In this document: piece after piece, positions 13,766 through 60,900 of the stretch
Numbering within the stretch: position 1 is the stretch's first letter
How the letters are laid out: each line of letters begins with the position of its first letter
Assembly (NCBI GenBank): GCA_018524725.1
Contig: JAEUWP010000611.1
Location: 1-64,000 of the forward strand
Reading direction: 5' to 3'
From: Podaxis mareebaensis
Taxonomy: Eukaryota; Basidiomycota; Agaricomycetes; Agaricales; Agaricaceae
Length of the DNA: 64,000 nucleotides
Notes under the pieces: generated by a model
What the model saw: the letters and a program-made list of their open reading frames with translations, nothing else
Databases searched by the model: none
What the model was told of the DNA's origin: nothing
Position numbers and translations under genes: made by a program

Positions 13766-16700
13766 TCAACCCAACAAGCTTTTCAAAACGTCCGGGTTGT
13801 TCCCCCATTCCTGTATTTCGTCGCTCATCTCGAAAACTATTTCTCCGCCATTGATTATCTGCTCATGAAGAAGTACGGGCGCATTGATCGGTTCACCATT
13901 GACAGTTAGAGGTTTGACGTATTGATTCTGCACCGCTCCAGAAGACCTTATTGTTAACCGCCTTGAACCTGGTTGGACGCTATTTGGAACGACCTGTGGC
14001 CAATCAATGATCATCTCATCGAAGAAGGGTCTTCCGGACAGAATTGAATTAGTCGTTGAGATGACACAGGAGTTAGAGGTAGCGCTCACGCTCCAACTAC
14101 ATATTCTCCAGAGACCGGATTCACAGGATAGAATCCCATAGAACTGAAGATGTACCAGGCGCTCATCTGACCGCAGTCTTCATTCTACACAGCAATTAGT
14201 TCTAGTCATCCTCGAGTCCAGTACCCTTACCCCGGAAAGGCCTTGTGGCGTGTTGTTATAGTTAGCCAAGGCAATATTACGCACCCTCTCTTGTGTTCGA
14301 AACGCGGCTCCGGCCAGTGAATAGAGATAAGGGATGTGATGAGAGGGCTGTTCCAAACACGATCAAAAGGCACAGCTTTATTGAGGTCTCAAACCAAAGA
14401 TACCTCGTTGGTGTGTTGGTTGTGGCCCCCGTTGAAATGATCTTCCAAGCTCTTCACGAAGCTAACATTGCCACCTCTGTGTAGAATGAGCTGCGGTACA
14501 TCATGCACGACATCGAAGGTGTATATCCATTTGTCGCCTATTTTAAGTTAAGCGGCGGTCACTAGTGTTAGAAAAGTGATTGGTGCGAACCTTCTGTCCA
14601 CCCTTTGTCCGGCCCCGCCCTACTTCCATCAGCATTACGAGCTTCCATGAAACCTGTTTCATTGTTAAACAAGGTGAACGGAGCGCGTTGAGAGCGGTTC
14701 AGGAGGAAGGAAGTGATATTGTCCGGCTTTCCTAAGGCCTTGGCCACAACGTAAACTGCGTAATCATCATCTACGTTTCCCGTTTCGGAATGAATGAGTC
14801 ACCAGGTGTATCACTCTACTTGACAGACCTACATGCATAATCCAAAGTCCGGGAGCCACTCTCGGAATGCACGTCGTTCGCAACCCATCCTTTGCTTGGA
14901 TCGTCGTACACGGAGGATAATCCTGCACGAGCTTCGAAGTCGACGTTCTGGTTCGAAATCAACGGCTTTTATAGGAGATGACATCACGTAGTGTATACCT
15001 CCTGGCGATCTCCGTATCTATTACCCTTGGAGTCAGCCAAAACGGCCATGGGGAATACGAGGTCCGACTACTTACACTGTGTTACGGTCTGCGGTGGGTG
15101 GGACCGTCGCATCCTTCCAGACGGCCTCCCAAGCGAGGTCACGGTCGAATCCAGTTACACCTTTTCGGAATGCCTCTCCGATAAGTGAATCTGCATGTGT
15201 CCCAACCTGATAATAGCTGCAGTTGAGCACCCCGTTTCACGCTGTATTTCGCGGACCTCACCATAATATTGGTTTCGACGATATTCTTCCACATAGGTAG
15301 CCAGCCTCCCTGAACTTGACATGATTGTGCGAATTTCGGGAAAGTGCTGCAGACACGTACCTCCCGGAAATCATTCAGCATGCTGGTGACCATACCAGGC
15401 AGTCGCTCGGGAGCGAATAGGATCGTCCAGGCCCAGGCCGCTCGGTACGTATCCTATACGGGAAAGTAACTCAGGAAACACGTCGTGCCTTCATACAGTT
15501 GATCCTAACCCAGATTGAATAACCAGTGTATGATTCGCTGCCCTCATGGACTTGGTTGTCGAAAGCCGAGTAGTAACGATTTTCCTCGTGTTGCTCGCTG
15601 GGATACTGAAGTCCATGAACGGCGGCGGTATAGAAAACTTCGAGGTCCTCATGGGATGCGCCTTTGATCTGAATCCGGTCCAACTTCTCTGCCCATTGAC
15701 CTCTGACGGACGCTGCGGTCGCTTCCAAAGTCCCTGGAACGAGGCTTGTATTCTTATCTAGAAATAGGTCAACAAGACAAACAAGGATTTTATACTCCGG
15801 CTTACCAGAATTCTTGGGCGGATTGGGGACTTCTAAGTCTATATTGCGCCTTGCCTGGTCCTGCGAAATGAAGCTAGTTCCAATCCTTACGTTTACCACA
15901 AGGCTCCTTCCATCAGCTTTCGCTTTCGGGAACAAAGCAAATGCGCTCAACAAGGAGCCTTCCGCATCCATCTGCCCAGAAAGAGTCGTCTGGTTTGCAA
16001 TAATCCCAGTTTTCCCATTCCCGTTCAACGGCACATCGAACCGGGCACAGAAAAATCCCTTGAAATGCGAGGCCGGCTCCTTGATGGAATTGGGAGTTAT
16101 AATAGCATCTTGACGCTCGTTGGATGAGCCGCAGATCTCATTGCGAGATTGTGAAATAGAGACAGTGCCAATGGGGAATGTGATGTTGGTTTGGTCATGC
16201 GCTTGAATGGATTGGCGAACAGCATCAATGAGGATATACGGGGTTGCGGAGCTAGTGGTATTTGTCCCGGCAGTGAAGGTAAATCGGAGGTGGCCAACTC
16301 GTGAAGCTAAAAGGTTATTTGTTCCGTTAGTCAAGGAGATAAGCGTAAAAGATTGATACCAATCGCACTCACTGGAGCTCTGTTCGACCGAAATTGTTCC
16401 TCCGGTCCCGTCTTCCAGTTTAACGCTGTAGTATCCCGGACTAATGACTTCCTCACCCCTCTGTTCATGCCCACCCACGAACCTCAACCCGCGAGCCCGG
16501 AAGTCCGTCTTAATCTCGTTTGGATCTCCAGTGGGCGCAATCCCAGGAACAAGAGCCAAACTGGCGCTTTCGCCCATCCAAATAGCAGGCTGACGTGTCG
16601 CTTGGAATCCATGTATCGTAGGTGTGAGCTCCGTGACGTTGTATGGCGTACGAGAGACATAATTGACACGAGTTTGTGCGATCCAGCGGGTCATAGCAAA

Positions 16701-16996
16701 GGGAGGGCCTGTGGATGGGATCATGCCTCCTGTGAAGCTGGGCGCGATGCCTCCATTTCCAATCAACCTGCATTACAATCAACCGCTCGCGGGATGTGAA
16801 AGGGGCTGTTATCGTACAGATTTACGTGGTCCACCGCATCACTCGCCGGAACTCGAAACTGTGGAGGTGGCAGGATACGCCCGGTTGGAGTCCTATCTTG
16901 TGCAGCGGCTGGGATGGATGTCAACAACGCCACTAAGGGCAGCGCCGTCACTTTGAGCAATCCCATTTTGGGTACCTCAATGGTGCCGTTGGCCAT
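13766..16996 (-). CDS. Secreted GH92 alpha-1,2-mannosidase-like enzyme, copy A
   Basis: A multi-exon gene. The start is MANGTIEVPKMGLLKVTALP at 16996; the internal ATG at 16966 gives a cleaner signal peptide (MGLLKVTALPLVALLTSIPA). Exon 1 ends in DAVDHVNL and joins to IGNGGIAPSFTGGMIPSTGP, the typical GH92 N-terminal glycine-rich region. The GH92 catalytic core is recognised by QGGWLPMWKNIVETNIM, GTHADSLIGEAFRKG, GHNQHTNE joined across an intron to PSHHIPYLYSLAG (NEPSHH carries the catalytic acid), and SGNEDCGQMSAWYIFSSMG. The stop is TGA at 13768-13766. The family is calcium-dependent and trims mannose from N-glycans or mannans. All junctions checked keep the frame. It is the tandem partner of the GH92 gene just upstream on the same strand. 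Confidence 0.9.
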
Positions 16997-17277
16997 GGTT
17001 TTAATGTCGGCCGGTACTAAGTCAAACGTTCGTCCCCAGGCTTCTCGATGTCCAGAAGCCCATGAACGGGATATTGTATAAAAATGCTTCGTGCTTCTCC
17101 AAGGTCACCTGAGTTTCATTGTATCCCACATCGTCATTCCCGTGAGATATTCGAAGTTACGTCCAGGTGGCGAAGGGGCAATTTTGACAACAGGTATATC
17201 CTATTTTTTGAAGGAGTATTTAATTGTTAAATGTACAACGTGTTGTTACCATCAGCTCAACATGGCATTATGATGAA

Positions 17278-20200
17278 TTAAAGCTCAGAACGATCAGGGA
17301 AGGGTTCTCGGTTAGCCTGCTTCTGTTCTGCATCTTTTTCTTGCTGGGCAGTCGCTCTCGGCTTCACGGGCTCTTGAGGAGTCAATTCAGGTGCCTAAAA
17401 CACAATCAGAATCAGATTTGCCGTATAAATCAGACTTGATTTCACTCACTAGCTGGCCGATATTAGTATCCAACGCTTGGAGCACTTCAGGATCGTTGCC
17501 CCACTCCTCAATTGTTGGACTCATTGTGAACACGATGATACCACCATCAGCAATCTGCTCGTGCGTAATGATAGGCTTGTCAAGGGAGACGCCGTTGACC
17601 TGAACAGACTTGATATAGGGGAGCTTCGGCCCACCAAGGGATATGATCTGGAGTTTCTTAGACTCGGTGCTGCCGGGACGGGGAGGTAGATCAATTTCAA
17701 CGCGGTTGAAAAGGGGTCTATTGGCGTGTGTGGAATAGCGATGAATAAGGATGGATCGGGGAACGGCGACAGGGGGAGGGGACGTACGATCCAATGACGT
17801 ATTCTCCAGAAACAGGGTTGACAGGGTAAAAGCCAAGAGCGGAGAAGAGGTACCATGCGCTCATCTGGCCACAATCCTCGTTCTGTGCAAATGGTTATAG
17901 ATAGAATTGTGACGAGACCCAGTGGAACGTACACCTGAAAGGCCGGTGGGGGTGTTGTCATAGTTGGCGCGCGCGATCTCGCGTACTCGTTCTTGGGTCT
18001 TCCACGCTGCTCCAGAAAGGGCATAGAGGTAGGGAATATGATGGGAGGGCTACAGGTGTGAATGAGCGACGTTTTGAAGGCTAACATATGGCGGAACCCA
18101 CTTCGTTGGTATGATCGTTGTGTCCACCATTGAAGTGGTCTTCCAGACTCTTTACAAACCCAATCTTGCCACCACGTTTCTCGATGAGTTGAGGAATGTC
18201 GTGGACAACATCAAACGAGTATGCCCACTTGTCACCTGGTAACCAGCCTCAGATCATGCAGAATGACGTCATTGGGGGATATGCATACCTTCAGTCCATC
18301 CACGGTCTTCACCAGCCCAGCTACCGTCTGCGTTTCTTGCTTCAAAGAAACCAGTCTTCTCATTCCAGAGAGTGAATGGAGCACGCTTGGAGCGTTCGAG
18401 GAGGAAGTCAGCTTCGGGTTTGCCGAGTTCTTTCGCAAGCACGTAGGCGGCATAGTCATCGTCTAGTCAAGTTAAACCATGGATACCCTATGCGATAGAA
18501 CATAAACAGAATTAGCAGACTCACACGCATAGTCAAGTGTTCGCGAGGCACTCTCGGAATGAAGGTCATCAGCGACCCAGCCCTTGCCTTCAACGTTGTA
18601 CGAAGATGAGAGACCGGCTCGGGCCTCGTAATCAACGTTCTGAGGAAGGGGATAAGGGTCTATGTGTGTATGATAAAGATTTGAGGGTTACCTACCTCTT
18701 GACGGTCCTCGTACTGAGTAGTGGCGTCATCCTTAGGAGCAACGGTCGCGTCCTTCAACACAGCCTTCCACGCGAGTTCACGGTCGAAGCCAGCAACACC
18801 CTTCTTGACTGCCTCAGCGATGAGTGAATCAGCGTGAGTGCCAATCATGATATTGGTCTCGACGATATTTTTCCACATTGGTAGCCAACCGCTCTGAGGA
18901 CTACAAGTGAGCAAAGCGGGCCAACACGAACCAAAGGAAGTACACACCTGCTTGTAGTCCTCCAACATTGAGTTGATGAAACCGGGAATGCGTTCAGACG
19001 AGAAGAGAATCTGCCATGCCCATGCGGCGCGGAAGGTATCCCAGATCGAGTACCCAGTATACGATTCCTCGCCCTCCTTCAGATCATGGACCCTCCCATC
19101 ATAACCAGACCAGTACTGCCCGTGCTCGTGTTGTTCACTTGGGTACTGAAGTGTACGGGCGACAGCAGTGTAGAAGATCTCCTTCTCAATGTCTGTTGCG
19201 CCATGTACCTGGAACCTATCGAGCTTTTCCGCCCATTGTTTCCTAACACTTGCAGCGGTGTGTTCTATGGTACCAATCATCAGTCCATACTCGTCATTAA
19301 GCTCGGGGTTGACATCAGGAGCTTCGAGATCAATATTCTTCCTAGCTTGATCAATCGATATGAAGGAAGTGCCAACGCGGACAGTGACCAACGCAAACTT
19401 TGCAGCGGAGGAAGGGGGGAAGAACGCATAGGCGCCAAGGGGGCCACCAGTTGCGTGACCGACGCCGCGGAGGACTTGACCCTCCTTGATGACACCGTGC
19501 CAAGCAAACTTTGCGTTGAACCGTGCGCAGAAGAAGCCGTGGAAGCCAGAAGCGGGTTCGCGACCGGAAACGGGGGTGATGATGTCGTCCTGACGTTCGG
19601 ACGAGAAACCGCAGATTTCGTTATGCTCGGGGGAAATAGTAACGAATCCTGTGGGCTGAGTCCTGTTCGCCGGGTTGGAGCCCGTAACCGAAGGACGCGC
19701 GACGTCGATGTAGATGTAGGGAGAGTCGATCGAGTTGTGAAGATCGAAACGAACTCGGAAGTGACCGACGCGTGAAGCTGATTGAAACGGTTAGCATCTC
19801 GACGATGACGCCTGAATGAATGACTGACTGGAAGATTGTTCGACAAGAATGTGACCATTCTTGTTGTCTGACAGTTCGACGGCGTAATAAGAGGGGCTGA
19901 TGATTTCCTCTCCTGGAACGCGGAATGACGGGTCGAATGGAAGGCCACGTTTGTCGAACTCCCACTCGATGCCTGCGGCGTTGCCCTCCAATGCAACACC
20001 GGGAACGATGGCAACACTTCCACTTTCGCCCATCCAGATTGCTGGTTGACGAGTGGCCTGGAAGCCATGGACCTTCTTGTGCGTTACATTGTATGGTGTC
20101 GCTGACACGTAGTTTTCTTGCGTCTGTGCGACCCAGCGGGTCATGGCGAAAGGTGGGCCTGTAGATGGGATCATACCGCCCGAGCCATTGGGGCTATCGC

Positions 20201-33650: not shown

Positions 33651-34719
33651 ATGGCTTACGAGTGCTCCGAGTGCAAGCGCAGATTTTCCTCTTCCGAGGG
33701 GCTGCGACAGCATTGCAGAGCAAAAGGCCACCCCCCATACGAATGTCTGTGGTGCAAGTGTTCTTTTGCAAAGGGGAAACACCTGATCAAAGTAGGTATT
33801 GTATCGGTCCTACCAAGCGCAATCCCTCACCTACACCCTAAATGGTAGCATATTTACGATAAACACAACGCAGAGACATGCCAGACAGAGCCACCAGTCA
33901 ACCACAAGGTGCTTGATCAGGCAAGTATATTTGTCAGTCTCCGTTTACTGAGAGCCATTGATGCTAGTCGATACAGCATTTGGAACGTTACATTGCCAAG
34001 GAGCGAGTTGAAGCAATCAACGAAGATGCTCTATCGTATACTCAGGAGTTACTCGACGAGGAGGAGGATACATACTGTATCCAGTGCAATAGATTTTTCC
34101 CGGATAACACTGGGTTTAAGCAGCATCTGGAATCGGTACACCACTGGTGCTTTACTTGCTCGCGTGGCTTTGATAGTCCCTTGAAACTCGCACAAGTACG
34201 CCTTTACACTCTATTCCAGAACGTTCCCACTCAAGCTCCGGCGTACAGCACCATAGGTCCCTCGTGCATGATGGCATTCGAAATTTCAAGTGCCCCTTCT
34301 GCAATATTGCCCTCAAGACCACATCTGCTATGGTTATACACCTAGAGGGCGATTGTCCCGACATGAGGCGTCCGACGGCGACGAAACACGAGCTCACGAA
34401 GCCGCGCATTGAAGTAGTACCTCGGATGAACCCCTCCTGTTCAGTCTGTGGACGCGAGCTCGCGTTACTCACCAGTCCTCCCTTCAATATAAAGAAGCGC
34501 AAGTGCCATCTTTGTTGGATGCGGTTCGAGACCCCTCAAGATCTCATAGCCCATATGAAGGAGACCCCAGAGCACCAGGGCCTTCTCTTTCACTGCTTAA
34601 ACTGTGAGACGGAGTTCCAGAGAATTCGTGAAGTCCTCTGGGAGGTGGGGATCAAGGACAAGTATATGAACAAGGCAAAGTCGCTGCTTATGTTGAATCG
34701 TCGGAGACGTTTGGTATAG
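33651..34719 (+). CDS. C2H2 zinc-finger protein
   Basis: Four exons (33651-33791, 33849-33920, 33968-34195, 34249-34719) splice to 303 aa. The first finger is YECSECKRRFSSSEGLRQHC. Later fingers are YCIQCNRFFPDNTGFKQHLE, CPFCNIALKTTSAMVIHLEG and CHLCWMRFETPQDLIAHMKE. The last is CLNCETEF near the end. Several have irregular histidine spacing, as is common in fungal proteins of this kind. The second intron can be read as GC-AG (GCAAGT donor, exon ending LDQ) or as GT-AG starting 12 bases earlier; both keep the frame. DNA or RNA binding is likely; targets unknown. Confidence 0.85.
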
Positions 34720-34886: not shown

Positions 34887-34958
34887 TTCGGATACGGGGA
34901 ATCGAACCCCGGGCTATCGCGTGAGAGGCGATAATGTTAGCCACTACACCATATCCGA
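34887..34958 (-). tRNA. tRNA-Glu (anticodon CTC)
   Basis: Minus strand, 72 nt including the discriminator A. The acceptor stem pairs TCGGATA with TATCCGA. The D arm is GTGTAGTGGCTAAC. The anticodon stem ATCGC/GCGAT encloses the loop CTCTCAC, with anticodon CTC. The T arm is GGGGTTCGATTCCCC. A short T-run (TTTTT) lies just downstream as an RNA polymerase III terminator. No intron. Confidence 0.95.
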
Positions 34959-35527: not shown

Positions 35528-35791
35528 CTATGTTATGCAACGCCAAACTATCCTTCCATTCTCTGTGAGGGACATAAAGTCAAACGAGTGCCGAGACTCA
35601 GTTAGACAGCACCTACCGTCCTGGACGCAGGAATGATCTCGGGCGCCAATAGTCACGCAAAGATCGAGGCAGGCAGCCTCACCTTGCGCAGGGCACATTA
35701 CATCCACCTCGCGCGCATCAGGAGTTGGGACAGCAATGGTAGTAGTTGAGAAGAGAGCAATGAAAGCAAAGGGAATTTGGGTAGGTTTCAT
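35528..35791 (-). CDS. Defensin-like secreted peptide with a five-cysteine framework
   Basis: Exon 1 (35791-35617) encodes a signal peptide (MKPTQIPFAFIALFSTTTIA) and most of the mature part. The intron 35616-35563 is 54 nt, and exon 2 ends at TAG 35530-35528. Spliced length is 69 aa. Cysteine order is C-x7-C-x3-C-x9-C, then W-x-C where the two clear defensins have C-x-C; the fifth cysteine codon is TGG. The intron sits after codon 58 in phase 1, exactly as in the two clear defensin genes, so common descent is likely. The intron is a multiple of three and has no stop. If it is retained, the product is 87 aa and gains an adjacent Cys pair. It may be a diverging or decaying defensin. Confidence 0.65.
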   Translation of the reverse strand: MKPTQIPFAFIALFSTTTIAVPTPDAREVDVMCPAQGEAACLDLCVTIGARDHSCVQDGRCCLTESRHSFDFMSLTENGRIVWRCIT

Positions 35792-36366
35792 GATGCCTGT
35801 CGGTTTTGGTTTACTTCCTCAAGGCTTCTGAGAGTCGAGCCTGACAGGCATAGGAAAGCGCAGCTGATATTGGTTCCGGCCATTAGTTCCAGTCAGACTG
35901 TCAGCGTATACAGCACATGCTACCAGTGGTCGCGAAGCGCGAGAAAACACAAGCTTTGCCCGGTTACATGTCCTTTTGAGGACGATGATTGACCGAGGCC
36001 TATCTCGTTCGTTGCCCATTCCATATGTCGAAGTAACAGTGCTTTTTATCGATTATCAATGGATAGCTGGGTTGAAATCAGGCAAGCGTCAGGCTTGGAA
36101 ATGATTTATACATGTAGGTAGTGACGGAGGCCTGCTGAGTGATAAAGTATCGGATTGAAATTGAATATTTTACGAGTTCATTACAGATTAGATATATGAG
36201 GTAAACTATATTGACTGGCCGATAGACAAGGGATTCGCAGTTTGAATCGCAAAGAAACGTACATAATACAAGGCCACTACTAACTATCATGCATACAAAT
36301 GATATCCTCTACCATAGTAAACAGGGATTCAAGTATATCAGTTGGGATTCCGGGGACAAGTGCCAT

Positions 36367-36617
36367 TTAATGACTGCAGAGACAGGCCAAGTCTAGGAAT
36401 GATACGAGCTTAGGTAAACGCTAATTGCCTGGATAGGGATCGACCTACCTCCGTTGCTACAGAAACCACAGTGGCAGCCTAATGCGACACAAAAGGAACA
36501 AGAAATGCGATATCCATTTGGGTATGTACTTGCCCTACAGGGAATCTCCGCAGCAGGAGCAGGAGCAGCCATCGTTGCAGTGAAAAAAAGGATGACAAGA
36601 GCAAAGATAGGCCTCAT
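36367..36617 (-). CDS. Secreted eight-cysteine defensin-like peptide
   Basis: Exon 1 is 36617-36449 and exon 2 is 36392-36367, with a 56-nt intron (GTAGGT...CCTAG); 64 aa. The signal peptide is MRPIFALVILFFTATMAAPA, ending in the same APAPA pro-region style as the two clear defensins. The mature part has eight cysteines: C-x12-C-x2-C-x4-C-x-C-x2-C-x6-C-x-C. The final C-x-C and the phase-1 intron just before the last two cysteines match the defensin genes nearby. The CxxxC step of a standard CS-alpha-beta motif is shortened to CxxC, and two extra cysteines are inserted. The model depends on the acceptor at 36395-36393, which supplies the last two cysteines. Confidence 0.65.
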
Positions 36618-37218
36618 GGTTCTGCGTTTTGCTGGAAAGCTGTGAATTTGGGTTTGTTACGTCGGGGGCAGAGGTCAGCCTCTTTAAATCTGGCTGTGAG
36701 CAACACTTGAAGATAAGAATATGTGACTGATGGTGTCTTTAGTGGTTAAGCCCATTCAAGTTGTAGTGCCGAAGAGTCGGGCAATAAGCAGTCATAGTCG
36801 GAAACTGTCTAGAGCCCAGAAGTCATTCCAAAACACGTGGCGCTTCTGGGCGAAGGTGAAATCGTGCCACGAGTCACTAACGTACAAAGGGCATCTCATC
36901 GTACCGGTGCTCTCGTACTCAATAGAACTGGTCTACACGTCGATCATAGGGCTCTTCCTGAGTTAAGTCCACCTTACACATATTGAGAAATCATGCTACT
37001 TTTGGCTAAATATGGTTGAGTCAAAGTCACGTAGAGGGACCGGGGCCTGTAGGCAACCACCTCGCAAATACCCTTGATGTTGCTGGATCGTACGCATGCC
37101 ATAGTCCGGGACAGCAATGATCATAAGTGTATAGTTACATGTCGATCGTCATATTTACAAGCTATCATACGCTGTGTGCATATGACCCCCATTCCTTGGT
37201 CATGGACGTGGCCACCAC

Positions 37219-37481
37219 CTAGTAATTGCAGACACAGATTTTCTCTGTTATGGCGTCAGTTCACTTGGATGATAGATGTGCAGAAGAATACACAGTGACC
37301 ACTTACGGTCATTGCAGTAGCCACCGTGGTAGCCCTGGCCTTGGGCAATGCAGCTGGCACTGCAAAGTGCATCAGCTGCACCAAAGATCCCGCCTACTTG
37401 ACAAGAAAGCTGAGTAGCAGGAGCTGGGGCGGCGAGAGCGGTGGTAGAGAAGATGGCGATGAGAGCAAAGAAGACCTTCAT
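37219..37481 (-). CDS. CS-alpha-beta defensin (plectasin-like), minus-strand copy
   Basis: Exon 1 is 37481-37307 and exon 2 is 37244-37219, with a 62-nt intron; 66 aa. The signal peptide is MKVFFALIAIFSTTALA, followed by a short APAPATQ pro-segment. The mature peptide has six cysteines in the order C-x12-C-x3-C-x11-C-x5-C-x-C. The GYHGGYC segment matches the GYKGGYC step of plectasin-type fungal defensins. The CxxxC, GxC and CxC features are those of the CS-alpha-beta fold. The last two cysteines come from exon 2 (ICVCNY). Such peptides are secreted and often kill bacteria by binding lipid II, but activity here is untested. It differs from the plus-strand copy at only a few residues. Confidence 0.9.
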
Positions 37482-37548
37482 GGTGTGGTTTGTTCACTGG
37501 TGAGTTGCAAGTTCGTGTTTGGTACTTGAAGTGGTCGAGTTTAGCTGT

Positions 37549-37556
37549 CTTTTATG
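37549..37556 (-). promoter_or_regulatory. TATA-like box of the minus-strand defensin gene
   Basis: CATAAAAG on the minus strand, at the same place relative to the ATG as TATAAAAG in the other copy. The first T of the box is changed to C, which may weaken it. Confidence 0.5.
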
Positions 37557-37820
37557 TCTGTGGCAGACCCACTCAATCCTTCCGTCCACCTCACGTTGCT
37601 CACTCACCATATGCACATGTGCAACAGCCCACTCTTATGCCTTGATACTCTGACATGACAACCGCGAGGTACTTCCGCCATTTCGCTCAGTACATTGACA
37701 TGGGTGTGAGCACTAGCCGGCCGACAGTGCAGCCGCCTTGGCATTCACTCGCTCGCTACTGTAGCTATAAATATCAAGTTCATTATCAATGCTTGTCCCA
37801 CGGTGTCCCTCTCTTTCCCA

Positions 37821-39279
37821 TTTTATAATTCAAAGGCTAGCTCCTATGACCTTACTTGGCAACAAGTAAAATTCCTCTTTTCACCTCAGGTCAGATCCAA
37901 GCCTGAGCAATAGTGACACTAGAGTCCCGCTCACAAGGCACGAACTGCTTCCATACATCATTGGACTCAAGCCATCTTGTGGCAGTGATTTCCATCTAAT
38001 ATCACATGTATTCCTCGTTGCTGTTATGCCCAACTTCGCCGTTCTTTCAAAAGACTGTGATTCGTGTTCCACTCTGAATCACGATGGAAAACAAATGCAT
38101 TGGGCATTGGTAAGAGGACCTGAGTAATACAAAGGAGGCACGCCCCCAAATCTCTACTAGAAACAGCTATCCTAGATCCAATCTGCGACTCATCCACAAG
38201 TGACCCGCAATGTCACTTCCTTGATCGTGGGCGGAATGCAGCGAAGTATCCCCGGCTGACTGGTGACTAGAAAGCACACTAGACTCATATGCCCAGATAC
38301 CAAGGTTGCACTGTGCGAGAGATAGACTTGTTGCCAATGAGTCCTTCTACTCTAGATGACAACTGCAGCTGCTCCCGAAGCCACGGGCATCAAGACTCTG
38401 TATGAAATACGCCGTATCACTCGCAACAAGGATGAAAGAACCCGTCTATTGGTAGGTGACCTGGCATACATTTGTTTCAAATGGCCGGGTAAGAGCAGGA
38501 GGCAGGCAATGGTTTACCTGGCTATTCTGGATATAGCTTACCATCCACTGTCAACATCTTCACCGTGAGATATAGGAGTGCCATGCCAAACAGACCATAA
38601 TTCTTCGTGCTGACCAGATAGCTGCCAGAGTACGCAGTTCTAGCCAGCTGATAAACGACCGGATGAACGACCGGATGAGAGACATATCCATTGATCCATG
38701 AAGACGGCGGTAACCCCGATGACAACATATCCACCGCACAAAGTGCTAGCCTCACTGGTGAGACTTACTGAGTTGAGCTTGCAAACGAAACTCGCAGAAG
38801 AGGATTGTTTGTGCAGTCACTAATCTATTCTAATCCCATGATTTTGCTTGCGTGATAGTCAGTCCACGTGCGTAAAGACTTCCCAATCTTCAGAGTGTAC
38901 AGAGAAGCCACCTACCTCAAGTCATGCAGGATTGACATGTGCCGAAGGCATCCCATCTATCTGCTTATGAACAACGTAGAGCCGAGCCGGAAACATGGGT
39001 GGACCAGGTGCTGCTACATAGCTCTACTGCTATGCCAGAATGAGAACGTGAGATATCATTCTGCTCTGACATGAATCATTCATATGGCTCTTGGATGTGA
39101 GTTCTACTGTCTTCAATGATTAGATCCTTTCAGGACCTGTTACCAGGCGGAGGGGCACCTGGAAGTGTCCAGAACAGGGTGTGGACATGGGTCTGGGAGG
39201 CCATGCCGTTGGAAGAATCGAAACACAGTGCTTCTTCGCTGTCAGCTAGCTCGACGTCAACTATTTTAAGGGATGGACG
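37821..39279. other. Spacer between the two defensin duplication arms
   Basis: No supported gene. An open frame at 38356-38568 begins MTTAAAPEATGIKTLYEIRR and could be a first exon ending before GTAGGT at 38452, but no continuation was recognised. A 13-bp direct repeat (AACGACCGGATGA) lies near 38.65 kb. Confidence 0.35.
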
Positions 39280-39554
39280 GGCCGTAAAGTGGAAGAAAGA
39301 GAGGAGACACCGTGGGATGGGCAATGATAATGAACTCGTTATTTATAGCTACTACGCTGCAAGCGAGCGCCAAGGCGGCTGAACATGTCGGCCAGCTAGT
39401 GCCCACACCTATGTCAAGGTACTGAGCGAAATTTAGAAGCACCTCATGGTTATTATGATCACCGATGTCAAGGGGTACAAGTGGGGTACTACGTGCATGT
39501 GGTGAATAAGAAACGTGAGGCCGACAGAGAGATCAAGTGGATCTGATACATAGA

Positions 39555-39562
39555 TATAAAAG
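39555..39562 (+). promoter_or_regulatory. TATA box of the plus-strand defensin gene
   Basis: TATAAAAG lies 67 bp before the ATG. The same box with its flank AAAAGACAGCTAA occurs before the minus-strand copy. Confidence 0.6.
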
Positions 39563-39628
39563 ACAGCTAACCTCGACCACTGCAAGTACCAACGCGAACT
39601 CGCAACTTACCAGTGAACAAACCACATC

Positions 39629-39892
39629 ATGAAGGCCTTCTTTGCTCTCATCGCTCTCTTCTCTACTACTGCTCTTGCTGCCCCAGCTCCCGCCACTCAA
39701 TTATCCTGCCAAGTGGGCGGAATCTTTGGTGCAGCTGATGCACTTTGCAGCGCCAGCTGCATTGCCCAAGGCCAGGGCTATCACGGTGGCTACTGCAATG
39801 ACCGTAAGTGATACTGCTGTGCGTCTTTCTGAATGATTTACTCACACAAATGTATGCGATGCTTAGAGCAAATCTGTGTCTGCAACTACTAG
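39629..39892 (+). CDS. CS-alpha-beta defensin (plectasin-like), plus-strand copy
   Basis: Exon 1 is 39629-39803 and exon 2 is 39867-39892, with a 63-nt intron; 66 aa. The signal peptide is MKAFFALIALFSTTALA. The cysteine spacing C-x12-C-x3-C-x11-C-x5-C-x-C is identical to the copy at 37219-37481, and all six cysteines are present. Changes between the copies lie in the signal peptide and at one exon-2 residue (Gln instead of Lys before ICVCNY), so the mature cores are almost the same. The gene sits in an inverted duplication that includes about 350 bp of upstream DNA, so the two are likely expressed under similar control. Confidence 0.9.
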
Positions 39893-42596
39893 GACGTGGT
39901 TAGCTACTAGGACGTGGTTATGTGCATGTTCTGCCGATGTATGAGGTCGCTTGTGTTAGTGATACCCAACTGTGAAACCGCGTCAGCAATGATCTCTGCC
40001 ATCCTTTTGCATATTCACCATGGAAATGATCAATGCAAGCGAGCTACAAATGAGACACTTCAGCATGCCCAAGATCATCGCTCATCGGTCCCTTTCTTCA
40101 GGTGTAGCCATTGAATAATAACTGGCTCCACGTAAGAGCTACTTGCGAGCCGCCACACTGTCGTCTAACACGACATCTCCTAGGATTCACTTCTATGTTG
40201 TTTTCCAACTTCAACATAGGATTCGCTGAAGATAATTCTTCTAGGTCTCTCTACTTCTAATAATCAGTACAGTCCGCCATAGACTACCGATATGACACAG
40301 ATACTGCAAATGCTCGATGCGGGCAGATCAACACCCATGCGCTATTGTGTATTCATTGGCTAGGGCCTCCTCCCTGACTCAAATATGGTGCACCGCTGGC
40401 GTTGCGACGATTGATATTATACTCCCGAACTCAGGGACCTAATACCTAGTCACTATACAGCCAACGTCTCCTGTGCGCCGCTTTTCGGCTTAACGCTGCC
40501 TCGTCCGGGTATTCACTATCCTCCGACTGAGAAACCTGCGATGACTCATTGACGTAGGCTGCATGGTTCAAAAATGAATGGCGGGGCAGAACGTCGACCT
40601 CCAAAAGGTTATCGTGTTAGTCAATTGGTCTGGGGCTCAGTGGGCCCAGGTGGAAACCATACCATTGGTCAAGGCAGAATGGAGCAAGGACGGACTGATG
40701 CTATCTACGTACATTTCCCGCGATACAATAGTCATCATTGGTACGGAAAACACGAACACTAGATTTTCTGAGCTTGGTGGACGTCGGTTACCTTTGACCA
40801 GAGCCCAACCAAGTGATGGCTGCTCCGCAAGGCCTCGCCCACAACCAGACTCGCCCCGAGGCGCCGAGCATCACTACTATCCTTCACTATTAATACTACT
40901 TAACAGACAACACTGACTCTACCAGCATTATCCATGGAATTCGTACCAGGGAATGCCAGCACAGGATACCCTCTTACAGAAGTCGGCGGGACGTGAATCC
41001 ACCTTGGCCATTTTCACGTCCAGCACTCTCTGCTTACGACTCACTTCATGTCCAGCACTCTCTGCTTCCAACTCACTTCACATCATGCTCGTAACTGCGC
41101 CAGGCATTGGCTTTCTGCCGCACGAATAGCTCTTCATTGTATTACGGCTTCATTGGAGAATACAAAACAAATGCAGGCCAACTCAATCGCCCGCACTCAA
41201 CCATACTGCCTGTTGTTGTTGTTCCAATTCTATGCTTTGATAACGATCCCATCCAAACAGCTGCAGCTGCTTCAAGAGAGAGAACACGACTGTATCAAGT
41301 GGATCCAGTTTGAATATGTTGATTAACCTCGGTTGCCACATATTGCTCACTTATTTATTGTATGACACAGTCAAGTCAAAGGGCAAACAACGCTAGTATA
41401 ATCATGCCACCGGAGAGATCATTGGGAGGCTTAATATAATTGGGAACGCTTTACCGTTGGCGCAGGGACCGCCATGTGCATAGCCCCGAGGAAATCACAT
41501 CTGTGGCGTGCAATACTGGTCAAGGTCCGAGTGGGATGAGAATGAGACAGATGGTGAATTAGACGCGTCTTTCTTACATAGGCTAAACAGGGTACATATA
41601 CCTATGGTCCTCATTGATTACCCGCGTCATGGCCAGGGAAATATTACAAATGGACGGGCCCGTTAAGTCCATTATTTGAGCTTCTTACGAAGCATCGCTC
41701 ATGTTTTATTGCCTCTCTTCAGATGTCATTCGGGGTCCATGTCATGTGAAACGATCAGCTAGTCGCAAAAGCCGCATTTCGACAGGTAAAGGCACCCATG
41801 CACGGGGATTGGTAAATACTATCGGGCCAACGAGAGTCCTATGCACTGTTCAAGGTGAAACTTCACGAGTCCACCTCCCTGGTGTTGGAATAAGGCAACG
41901 ACGTGATAGATCCAGGATTTCACATTGCCTTAAGCGAAGCCTTGGGGGGTCAATGTAGTCCGCTCTTCTTCGTGGTAGGGCTCGATAAGCGAAGGTGGCA
42001 GGAGCATAACGAGCTACTAGTGGATAATCTTGCCGTTCCTAGGGTTAGATATGAGCGGCGTTGCTCGTGAGAGGCGGTTGAAGCATTATACCATGCGCGG
42101 GACCATTCGCTACAATTCGGAGCAGTGACGTTCATCTTTGCGTAGAGAACAGGATGTAGGATGGTTCATTGGCATAATGAGTGGCGGCGCCTGGATAGCC
42201 CATTCACGTGTGGATTGATGAGAATGACATGCCGAGTGGTCCATCCAGAATGGCACATAAGATGGACGGTAAAGGATCGCAAGCGCAATCGTCAATGATC
42301 CGTGTTATCTTCCATAAAGTCCGTGGTGGCACGAGACTCTCCAAGTTTAGACACATCTGAAAGCTCTCGCAGAGCTGATCACAACCGTGGTACTACAGTA
42401 GTGGGAATGTGTTGTCCGCTCTCATACTGCACATCCTCGCACTGTCAACCTGGGGATAAAGCAAGACGTATGACGCCACAAAGACCGGGAGCATCTAAGA
42501 AGCGGCTAGTCCTTGCAGGCTATGCATGGTTGTTGCACAGCCCCCATAACGTGGAGGTTGTGATACTAGCAGTCAACTACATAGCCCTCATCTATT
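39893..42596. other. Gene-poor interval
   Basis: About 2.7 kb without a supported gene. The longest frame with protein-like character is 40578-40916 on the plus strand (112 aa, MAGQNVDLQKVIVLVNWSGA at its start), which resembles nothing I can name. A tandem repeat of 32 bp lies at 41019-41082. Confidence 0.35.
41019..41082 (+). repeat. Two-copy 32-bp tandem repeat
   Basis: TCCAGCACTCTCTGCTT followed by a 15-base variable part occurs twice in direct succession, 41019-41050 and 41051-41082. No coding role is seen. Confidence 0.7.
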
Positions 42597-57945: not shown

Positions 57946-60900
57946 ATGCCTCGCAATGCTCGCAAGAAACAACAGGCTCTATCTCCCCCTCCCCTCCTTC
58001 CAACCCCGCTCCCAGACGTCCCACTTCTTGCCCCAGAGCCTCTTGCAGCAAGCTCTGCGCTCGACAGCCTTATAGACTTTGAACCAGACAACCAGTATAC
58101 CTCGCCTCCTTTCAGAGAGGCACAGCTCCCCGAAGATGAATATCCGCGGCCAGAGACACCGCCCCTGCCCATTCCGCCCAGGATCCATGCGCAGTATCAC
58201 CAAGATGAGGCGGTAGAAGCATCCTATGTGACGAGTGCAGGTCATACACGCACTCCCACAGTGCCGAGGTATGTAAACACGTTGTCGCTGTTCCTCCTCT
58301 CCTTCATGTCCCACTCTGACTCATTCCACAGGTCTCCAACTAGACTCCAGTCTATCTCCCGTACAATCAAGACCTACGCTCCCCAGTCTGCATCTGCCAT
58401 CAAGTCTTCTGCTTCTGCTGCCATCCGCTCTTCTGCCGATGCTATTCGCACCTACGTTCCTTCCTCGATCCATATCCCCGTCCCTTCCGCTGGGCCTTCA
58501 CCGCCCATGGTCTCGCGCCCTCTGAGCTACGGTCGCTTCTCTGTTGATCCGGACCTTTCCCGACAGGAGAGCCCTTATCAACAAGATAGCCAGCTGTTCG
58601 AATATCACGGGCGGCACCCGCACCACGAGGCTTCCGCGCCGCCCACCCGCCCCCCTTCAGGTGTTACCAGAGCGCTGGGTACTGACGCTGGTGCGTCATA
58701 TCCCCGTTCGTCTCTGGAGGATACCCACGCCGATGCCATCGCTTGGGCCCGCTGGGACATCCTTTCTCACAGGTGATGTCTTCTCGTTGATCTCCTGATT
58801 GTTTTCTGAGACTTTGATAGCCGCGTGTTGGTGATTGGATATACGTCGGGTATCCAGATTTGGGACTGCCATGATCTCGGGTCTGTCACCGAAATACTCA
58901 ACCTTACACACTCGTCGGAGGAATGGGTCCTCGACGTCGTTGGCCGCACCGTTGGGCTCAACACTTTTGTTCATGCAGCCATCCTCCCGCCGCCATCTGA
59001 TCTTCGTGGTGACTTGCTTGCAAGCCACCGTCCGCTCCTTGGAATCCTTATGTCTGCGTCCGACTCGCCGACCCACTCGGCGCTTTTCATTTATTCGCTC
59101 AATACCCATCAGCTCGTACAAAGGATTGCGTTGCCTGGTATGGCTTCTACTTTTCAATCTAATAACCATTTTATTGTAATTGTGAGTACTATGTTGATCT
59201 CATTTCCCTCTCGTTTATTGATTCGGTGCACAGAGTACAACTTTGCCCCCGACTGTACATATATTTTCGGCTTCGACTTTTCACACTTTGTGGACCCTCT
59301 CTTCAGCATCTCTTGCAACGTTCTCGCCTGTATCAAATGTATCATTAGCAGCTCAAACTACGCCGATAGAACAACCGCCGAAGCCCCCTCCCGCGCCCGT
59401 CTTTGCGCTATCCCAACGCCTTCTTGCTTATGCTTCCCCTTCGCCGCACCAGCCACGTCGTGTATCCACGTCCTCTACTGGTTCTGGACCGTCGCTCTCC
59501 AGTACCTCGTCTTCGCCTTTTGGATTCACACAGAACGATCTTGGGAATGCAGCCTTAAAGGTTGGAGGGACCGTGTTGAGTGGGATGAAGTTTCTGGGTG
59601 GAATTGCGTACGAGGCAGCAAAGAATAGGATCGCAGACGCTGGTGGCTCGAACGTCACCCCTCCTGGTGCACGATTCTTTTCAAGAAGCGCTCCGACTGA
59701 TGAACGGCCGTTCTCGACGACATCGCCAGTTATCAAGTCAGAGAAGGACAAAGTTATCTCCCCGCATACGAACCCGGTTGTGGATTCGGGATATTATGTT
59801 ACAGTACTCGATTTGAAAGGTTTGCTTGATGGGGCTGATATGCCGATTAAGGTTTCGGAGTTCAAGACATCGAGGAGCCAGCCTGTTGCGTACCTGGCAT
59901 TTTCGAAGGATGGGTGTAAGCTCGTTTCTGTCCCAGAGAATGGACAGGTGGTGCGGGTATTTGCGATCTGCCCACGGCGCGCGGAAGGAGACGGAACCGA
60001 GGACAGAAAGGCTGGCGATGGGGTGAGGTTATATGATCTGAGGAGGGGGCGGACGTCGGTATTGGTCGAGGGTGTGGATTCAGCGAGGGACGGGAGGTGG
60101 GTGGCTATCGCGACGAGGAATAGGACGGTTCACGTGTTTCCGACAAACCCGTTTGGTGGACGGCCAGATGTTGGGGGGCATTTGCAGGGAAAAGTCAGGA
60201 ATATTGACGAGTTGGTGAGTACTTGCTCGATGGATCGTGTGCGCCGACTGATTGCTCTTAGCAATCCCACCTTGTAGAGGTCACGCCCCTTGTTCGCATT
60301 CGTCCAGGGAAGAGCTCCAAGTTGGAATCGTCCCATGCCCCTCTCGCGTTTATGCTTGTGCACCCCGACGATGTGCACGTTCCTATGAGCTTGTTGCCAT
60401 CGGCGCCCCCTAAATTCACTGATCCAACTTCTTCCCCACCCACCTCACCCAATCGTTTACGTCGCGCGGGAAACATTCAAGACGTTCTTGTGTTCGATCC
60501 TGCAGACGGCATGCTTTCACTTCGCAGAATCACTCTCGATCAACGTCCCAGAGATCAACTTGGCCTCGGTTCGGTTTCGACATCTGCTATGGGTGTTGTT
60601 TCGAGGTCGATGCCTGGAGCCGTCGGAAGCCCTGGGCGACTTAGCGCATCTCCCGGTGCGTTGAGTCGTGCCTCATCCACTTCAACTACAGCTGGCGGAG
60701 GAGGAACTGCCCAAGGAGGGCAAGGAGGACAGGATGCGATGGCGGAACTGGTTGGGCAGGGATCACTGGTTGCAACATGGAATCTACAAAGAAAGAGAGA
60801 TTGGGAGGAGATCCGCAAACCGATTGATGAAGTCTCAGGGATCGTTGCACGGCCGAAGGGAGTCTTTGGCGCCGAGTATGTGTTCCATTGCTATCTTGTG

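Follow-up and report, generated by a model that had tools for sequence, protein, structure and literature searches.

A cluster of four small genes for predicted secreted peptides in Podaxis mareebaensis: a pair of insect-type defensin genes beside two altered relatives

What kind of peptides are encoded by a tight group of four small genes in the mushroom Podaxis mareebaensis, and what might they do? The genes lie at 35528..39892 of a 64,000-nucleotide stretch of DNA (the window; positions 1 to 64,000 of contig JAEUWP010000611.1, assembly GCA_018524725.1). A sequence-only reading had described them as four secreted cysteine-stabilised alpha-beta (CS-alpha-beta) defensin genes, with a step like that of plectasin in two of them. 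The question has wider relevance, as the roles of fungal defensins are poorly known: some are antibiotics, pechrysin is reported to be inactive, and anisin1 is tied to development. The locus offers a natural test, with a near-identical pair differing in the cysteine domain only at the c-loop, beside two relatives of changed framework. The analysis presented here indicates that two of the genes belong, on sequence, to the classical insect-type group of fungal defensins, and that the cluster brings new members, and two unusual variants, to a fungal peptide family that was known before.

The region from 34.5 to 41.0 kb was read and splice combinations were tried on the relevant strands. Four small two-exon genes resulted, whose outer bases are the last stop-codon bases of genes 1 and 4, in agreement to the base with the extent claimed earlier. 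Gene 1 (35528..35791, minus strand) comprises exon 1 at 35617-35791, an intron of 54 nucleotides at 35563-35616 and exon 2 at 35528-35562. Gene 2 (36367..36617, minus strand) comprises exon 1 at 36449-36617, an intron of 56 nucleotides at 36393-36448 and exon 2 at 36367-36392. Gene 3 (37219..37481, minus strand) has its exons at 37307-37481 and 37219-37244, separated by 62 nucleotides at 37245-37306, and gene 4 (39629..39892, plus strand) has them at 39629-39803 and 39867-39892, separated by 63 nucleotides at 39804-39866. All four models carry a single phase-1 intron with a GTAGGT or GTAAGT donor, and their products are 69, 64, 66 and 66 amino acids long, with five, eight, six and six cysteines, respectively. 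By a crude hydrophobicity rule, used in place of a signal-peptide predictor, each has a hydrophobic N-terminus, and the products are predicted to be secreted and to form disulphides.

The intron site lies in the third codon past the fourth framework cysteine in genes 2 to 4, and one codon later, the fourth, in gene 1. The earlier description of one phase-1 intron per gene thus stands for all four, and its placing before the last cysteine pair for genes 2 to 4, but not for gene 1, where the second exon reads W-R-C and has no CxC. Several other splice combinations are open (seven listed for gene 1, about 40 for gene 2, one for gene 3 and two for gene 4). The predicted splicing was chosen among them on cysteine pattern and position, and in genes 3 and 4 conserved exons around a diverged intron back that choice.

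Genes so short, with exons so tiny, with alternative splice choices and with models built on DNA alone, could be chance open reading frames or artefacts of gene modelling. The pattern of a methionine, a leader and C..C..C..C occurs four times in the window, each time at one of the four genes, whereas in 60 dinucleotide shuffles it averaged 0.4, with a maximum of 2; when a hydrophobic start is included, the mean falls to 0.03 per shuffle and the maximum to 1. Genes 2, 3 and 4 possess a tiny second exon ending in CxC, which arose in 22, 13 and 39 of 3000 trials, respectively, when the downstream DNA was shuffled with the donor fixed. For gene 1, which has no such exon, shuffled downstream DNA gave one in 10 of 3000. 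Relatives occur in several distant fungi, and a strong counter-signal for genes 3 and 4 comes from the changes that separate them.

Genes 3 and 4 form a head-to-head inverted duplicate, the arms of which also share upstream DNA. The arm with gene 3 spans 37212..37807 (minus strand; inverted-repeat pieces I1, I2 and I4-I8, 75-91% complementary) and the arm with gene 4 spans 39306..39899 (plus strand). The two genes are identical at 157 of 175 bases in exon 1 (89.7%) and at 24 of 26 in exon 2 (92.3%), at only 39 of 58 aligned bases in the intron (67.2%), and at 160 of 270 in the 300 bp downstream (59.3%). Nineteen codons differ, 16 silently and three with a replacement; by NG86, dN is 0.027, dS is 0.477 and dN/dS is about 0.06, a ratio that is approximate because just 66 codons are compared. 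Conserved exons, a diverged intron and mostly silent changes together point to two protein-coding genes spliced as modelled, and show purifying selection on them. We hold an origin of the cluster in chance or in modelling to be very improbable, and the four-gene cluster is confirmed as real. The silent differences are unevenly spread, with 13 of the 16 in codons 9-31 and three in codons 32-65, for which gene conversion or codon constraint could account. A TATA-box-like TATAAAAG at 39555..39562 (plus strand), about -74 from the gene 4 ATG, aligns with CATAAAAG upstream of gene 3, and is a consensus match only.

To which family do these genes belong? Genes 3 and 4 encode six cysteines at a spacing of 12-3-11-5-1, and thus the C...Cx3C...C...CxC framework. 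Both match the Pfam family Defensin_2 (each with an E value of 1.1e-07; gene 3 at 32.1 bits against a cut-off of 20.4); genes 1 and 2 have no Pfam match above cut-off. In the PDB sequence set, an Anopheles defensin heads the matches together with engineered mutants of it, and further insect defensins come next (best E value 9.6e-08). A plectasin variant had an E value of 2.5 with the single query and of 0.29 with the family profile, and natural plectasin one of 3. The N-loop is long (x12), and the closest sequence match is to insect defensins; both features define the classical insect-type group. By these sequence measures, genes 3 and 4 are members of the defensin family.

A protein search with gene 4 found four relatives, namely one from Lyophyllum atratum (89% over 68% of the query) and three Aspergillus proteins. 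An alignment search with the four genes and these relatives then gave 57 proteins at E values up to 10, with the four query-row relatives among them; as it scored the 7995 candidates with most shared words, the relatives lean towards shared motifs such as CSASC. The named sources are Lyophyllum, Amanita, Cyathus, Aspergillus, Penicillium, Mariannaea, Mortierella and Linnemannia, which we take to represent three phyla, and there are unnamed metagenome proteins in addition. Genes 3 and 4 and their group conserve SCQ, CSASC, HGGxC and CxC. Twenty-eight complete domains could be counted (26 relatives, eight short-loop ones included, plus genes 3 and 4). Within this motif-biased sample, CSASC is present in all 28, and 24 domains are negatively charged, four neutral and none positive. 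A basic residue stands in the c-loop of 15 of the 28, including gene 3 but not gene 4. In a quick tree of 24 sequences and 45 columns, genes 3 and 4 pair with Lyophyllum, and the deeper nodes are weak. The Penicillium chrysogenum relative P0017, with a charge of -5, is a candidate for pechrysin. Actinodefensin matches (E values 0.25 and 0.36) were dropped, as were Pfam matches of metagenomic relatives to SLR1-BP and gamma-thionin, which fell below the cut-off.

Structural comparison is less discriminating. AlphaFold2 models of two relatives show a helix over the Cx3C stretch, followed by two strands in one model and by two two-residue strands in the other, and their PDB matches are mostly defensins or scorpion toxins. 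In the structure scores, plectasin (or its variants) and insect defensins tie. Plectasin, a lipid II binder of the ancient invertebrate type, shares the CS-alpha-beta framework with genes 3 and 4, but differs from them in its helix histidines and its anionic DEDD patch (PMC11222147). On sequence, genes 3 and 4 resemble insect-type defensins more than plectasin, although structure scores do not separate the two. The earlier comparison with plectasin is not upheld as phrased, given E values of 9.6e-08 against 2.5, the x12 N-loop and the absent helix histidine; a closer kinship was rejected, as the sequence matches to plectasin are just weak ones and the structure scores tie.

The classical insect-type fungal defensins anisin1 and pechrysin have the same x12 N-loop, Cx3C, short c-loop, CxC and acidity, and some of the closest relatives of genes 3 and 4 come from P. 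chrysogenum and Aspergillus. Compared by description rather than letter by letter, the genes reported here differ from anisin1 and pechrysin in their c-loop phase-1 intron and their four-gene cluster.

What might these peptides do? An antibiotic role like that of plectasin would have the products of genes 3 and 4 bind lipid II of Gram-positive competitors and block cell-wall synthesis, the cluster serving in defence. Its features in favour are the HGGYC turn, the tie of plectasin variants with insect defensins in the structure scores, the c-loop lysine of gene 3, and the precedents of AfusinC, which is anionic yet active, and aclasin, which rises with bacteria. The residues linked to lipid II binding argue otherwise. 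In plectasin, replacing either helix histidine weakens lipid II binding more than ten-fold, and the anionic patch binds calcium (PMC11222147). Across 88 peptides, a histidine precedes the third cysteine in 72, with a GXGCP start in one group and an extended N-loop in the other (PMC12284004). Genes 3 and 4 share the extended N-loop of that second group; they read CSASC and LSCQ, and have no histidine before the third cysteine, no GXGCP start and no DEDD patch. Their peptides are acidic, with a net charge from residue 19 onwards of -1 for gene 3 and -2 for gene 4. The sole difference between them in the cysteine domain is K60 in gene 3 and Q60 in gene 4, in the c-loop, where a cationic residue has been tied to antibacterial activity (PMC5234102; PMC6181372). 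The sequence matches are to the insect type, not to plectasin, and pechrysin is reported to have no antibacterial activity (PMC4165938). A plectasin-like role is doubtful, because none of the 28 domains is positive and serine stands where lipid II binders usually have histidine, and we regard the antibiotic explanation as rather unlikely.

The explanation that we consider moderately probable is that the four genes are a local family descended from one ancestral secreted-defensin gene, in which a phase-1 intron would already have interrupted the loop that follows the fourth cysteine. Genes 3 and 4 would encode near-identical acidic peptides of the classical insect-type group, and genes 1 and 2 would be older duplicates with a changed cysteine framework. 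The precursors would be exported, the signal removed and an Ala-Pro-rich stretch trimmed (genes 3 and 4 have no dibasic site). The mature peptides of genes 3 and 4 would carry three disulphides and fold into a helix lying against a beta hairpin, and their site of action would be outside the hypha. Their likeliest role would be that of a fitness peptide linked to development or stress, like anisin1, rather than of a plectasin-type cell-wall antibiotic; they may have a narrow antibacterial action. By analogy, a role in fitness or development is favoured with moderate confidence. Anisin1 has been tied to conidiation (PMC6394349) and to fitness, stress and development (PMC5234102; PMC4165938), and both it and pechrysin are described as having lost antibacterial activity (PMC5234102). 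AfusinC weighs against this role, being acidic yet antibacterial, with minimum inhibitory concentrations of 4 to 64 ug/ml for the majority of the Gram-positive strains examined.

Are genes 1 and 2 defensins at all? Gene 1 has five cysteines at a spacing of 7-3-9-11, keeping Cx3C and lacking the terminal CxC. Gene 2 has eight, at 12-2-4-1-2-6-1, and keeps CxC; no two of its cysteines stand four apart, so Cx3C is absent and CxxC takes its place. Alignment places an additional cysteine on either side of the histidine in the HGG turn. As both fail the defining framework, they are relatives of CS-alpha-beta defensins and not members, and the earlier claim of four CS-alpha-beta genes was too strong; that two frameworks are complete (genes 3 and 4) and two altered had been read correctly. 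Gene 2 aligns with genes 3 and 4 along its length (37% over 67 columns with gene 4 by BLASTP, E value 1.1e-11 within a set of 65 sequences), and genes 4 and 2 recover each other when used to search the genome. Those searches missed gene 1, and a search with gene 1 recovered only itself. Gene 1 shares 51 nucleotides of leader DNA with gene 4 at 84%; the protein alignment is weak (37% over 51, E value 5e-06 in the same set), and its leader is nearer to that of the metagenomic peptides P0057-P0061 (MQPTQ...; 40% over 62 columns with P0059). These peptides have GKGGHC turns followed, judging from the protein letters alone, by an apparent intron read-through. A common origin of gene 1 with the other cluster genes is inferred. 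In the quick tree, genes 1 and 2 have very long branches, and it was not used to place them. Neither gene matches a family above cut-off, and gene 1 has no Pfam match at an E value of 1. A KCTD match of gene 2 fell below the Pfam cut-off and was dropped, and P0058 alone has no convincing solved relative (proteinase K pieces came first, drosomycin at an E value of 1).

Such changes might mean that genes 1 and 2 are decaying, functionless copies, and that the pair of genes 3 and 4 alone forms the working cluster. The odd cysteine number and missing CxC of gene 1, the missing Cx3C of gene 2 and the want of a Pfam match above cut-off for either would fit decay. So would an alignment search with gene 2, gene 1 and P0057, which gave five matches, namely P0057 itself as a query row and four of its kin, and no protein like gene 2. 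Yet each gene has an open frame with start and stop codons and with splice sites that could be used, and gene 2 has an even number of cysteines and a terminal CxC exon of the kind that shuffling yields in 22 of 3000 trials. In addition, the lambda-Zytrisins are a published case of altered frameworks in which the gene structure is conserved and the genes are actively transcribed (PMC5234102). We hold decay of both genes to be possible, if the less probable reading. As older duplicates with altered frameworks, gene 2 could plausibly form a rearranged four-disulphide core, and the odd cysteine of gene 1 would make it either a dimer-former or a decaying copy. Three relatives (P0028, P0030 and P0031, two of them from Cyathus and Amanita) also have eight cysteines, in the different layout SCQAC...CCSASC, and extra cysteine pairs therefore probably arose more than once.

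A bolder proposal would unite these features. The SCQ/CSASC/HGGxC peptides would be a distinct, conserved, non-antibiotic class of secreted peptides across the presumed three phyla, in which the defensin fold is kept, the helix histidine linked to lipid II is exchanged for an invariant histidine of the HGG turn, and the peptides act as self-directed developmental or stress signals. The class would be diversifying at this locus through a c-loop charge switch (K60/Q60) and, in gene 2, through a cysteine pair that brackets that histidine while Cx3C is left behind. We consider this unlikely as it stands.

How new is such a cluster? Its kind is already known, since the abisins (PMC4165938) and altered-framework ascomycete relatives (PMC5234102) precede it. 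Eight basidiomycete peptides are among the 69 of a 2014 survey (PMC4165938), including abisin1-3 of Agaricus bisporus, which are three mushroom paralogues under one contig accession, from a single-intron family, and anionic. Two of the abisins have the same mature peptide and differ by four silent changes, a further likeness. The abisins differ in being three genes, filed as fDEF1, with no altered-framework member in the text consulted; they were compared by description, not by their letters (PMC4165938). No abisin or Agaricus name appeared among the protein search results for gene 4 or for the alignment of the four genes and their relatives. The homology of the lambda-Zytrisins shows in their gene structure and precursor layout, although the spacing of Cys2-Cys3 or Cys5-Cys6 is altered, and some adjoin typical members; unlike the genes described here, they are ascomycete, with two introns and six cysteines (PMC5234102). 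Gene 2 resembles the lambda type in its altered Cys2-Cys3 spacing (CxxC) combined with a gene structure like that of genes 3 and 4; the six cysteines of that type are found in neither gene 2 (eight) nor gene 1 (five). In the portions consulted of the open-licence literature on mushroom and basidiomycete defensins, a second defensin cluster from a basidiomycete was not met, nor was an eight-cysteine peptide resembling gene 2. The earlier remark that such clusters are rarely described in basidiomycetes calls for qualification in view of the eight peptides, the three abisins among them. A beta-rich, four-cysteine protein (PMC7711571) was set aside.

The locus also shows how automatic annotation damages genes of this kind. 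The prediction that gene callers lose the gene end is borne out in the databases, where 35 of 61 relatives end early at an intron position within the domain or continue through it. The other 26 extend to a CxC at its normal position. Of the 35, 17 include the fourth cysteine but no CxC, and in 18 the break or read-through falls in the helix. Two of the 35, P0029 and P0053, carry a partial annotation, and P0048 ends in CVCTY despite its read-through. Among the 18 interrupted in the helix, sixteen pass directly from CSAS to different residues (CSASV) and two end shortly after CSASC, a pattern that fits a helix intron overlooked by gene callers, at another position than the c-loop intron of genes 1 to 4.

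Searches of the genome (36.95 Mb in 429 contigs) with genes 4, 2 and 1, P0058, P0028 and Defensin_2 found no member above noise beyond this cluster, just weak matches; since such short exons are easily missed, this does not show that copies are absent elsewhere. Defensin_2 matched five places outside the window, all under cut-off. Four were judged by eye, and a C340 place and a separate C379 match were left aside; the C375 place lies opposite a zinc-knuckle-like frame, and the three other inspected places have no leader plus framework. Defensin_2 also matched under cut-off in three of 14 control genomes. The genome has 62 matches to DUF6533, a basidiomycete family, which together with the Lyophyllum match suggest an agaric.

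Several neighbours can be recognised in the window. A C2H2 zinc-finger frame (34264-34716, plus strand; E value 7.4e-07) directly adjoins the cluster, and a tRNA-Glu (CTC) gene lies at 34887-34958 (minus strand), separated from the gene 1 end by about 570 bp. Frames of a GH92 alpha-mannosidase occupy 15471-20068 (minus strand), with a Pfam match for 18663-19391; by eye, two tandem copies are apparent there, with similar frames at 15471-16766 and 18660-19391. An exon of a BCAS3-type WD40 protein lies at 59243-60274 (plus strand; E value 4.1e-12).

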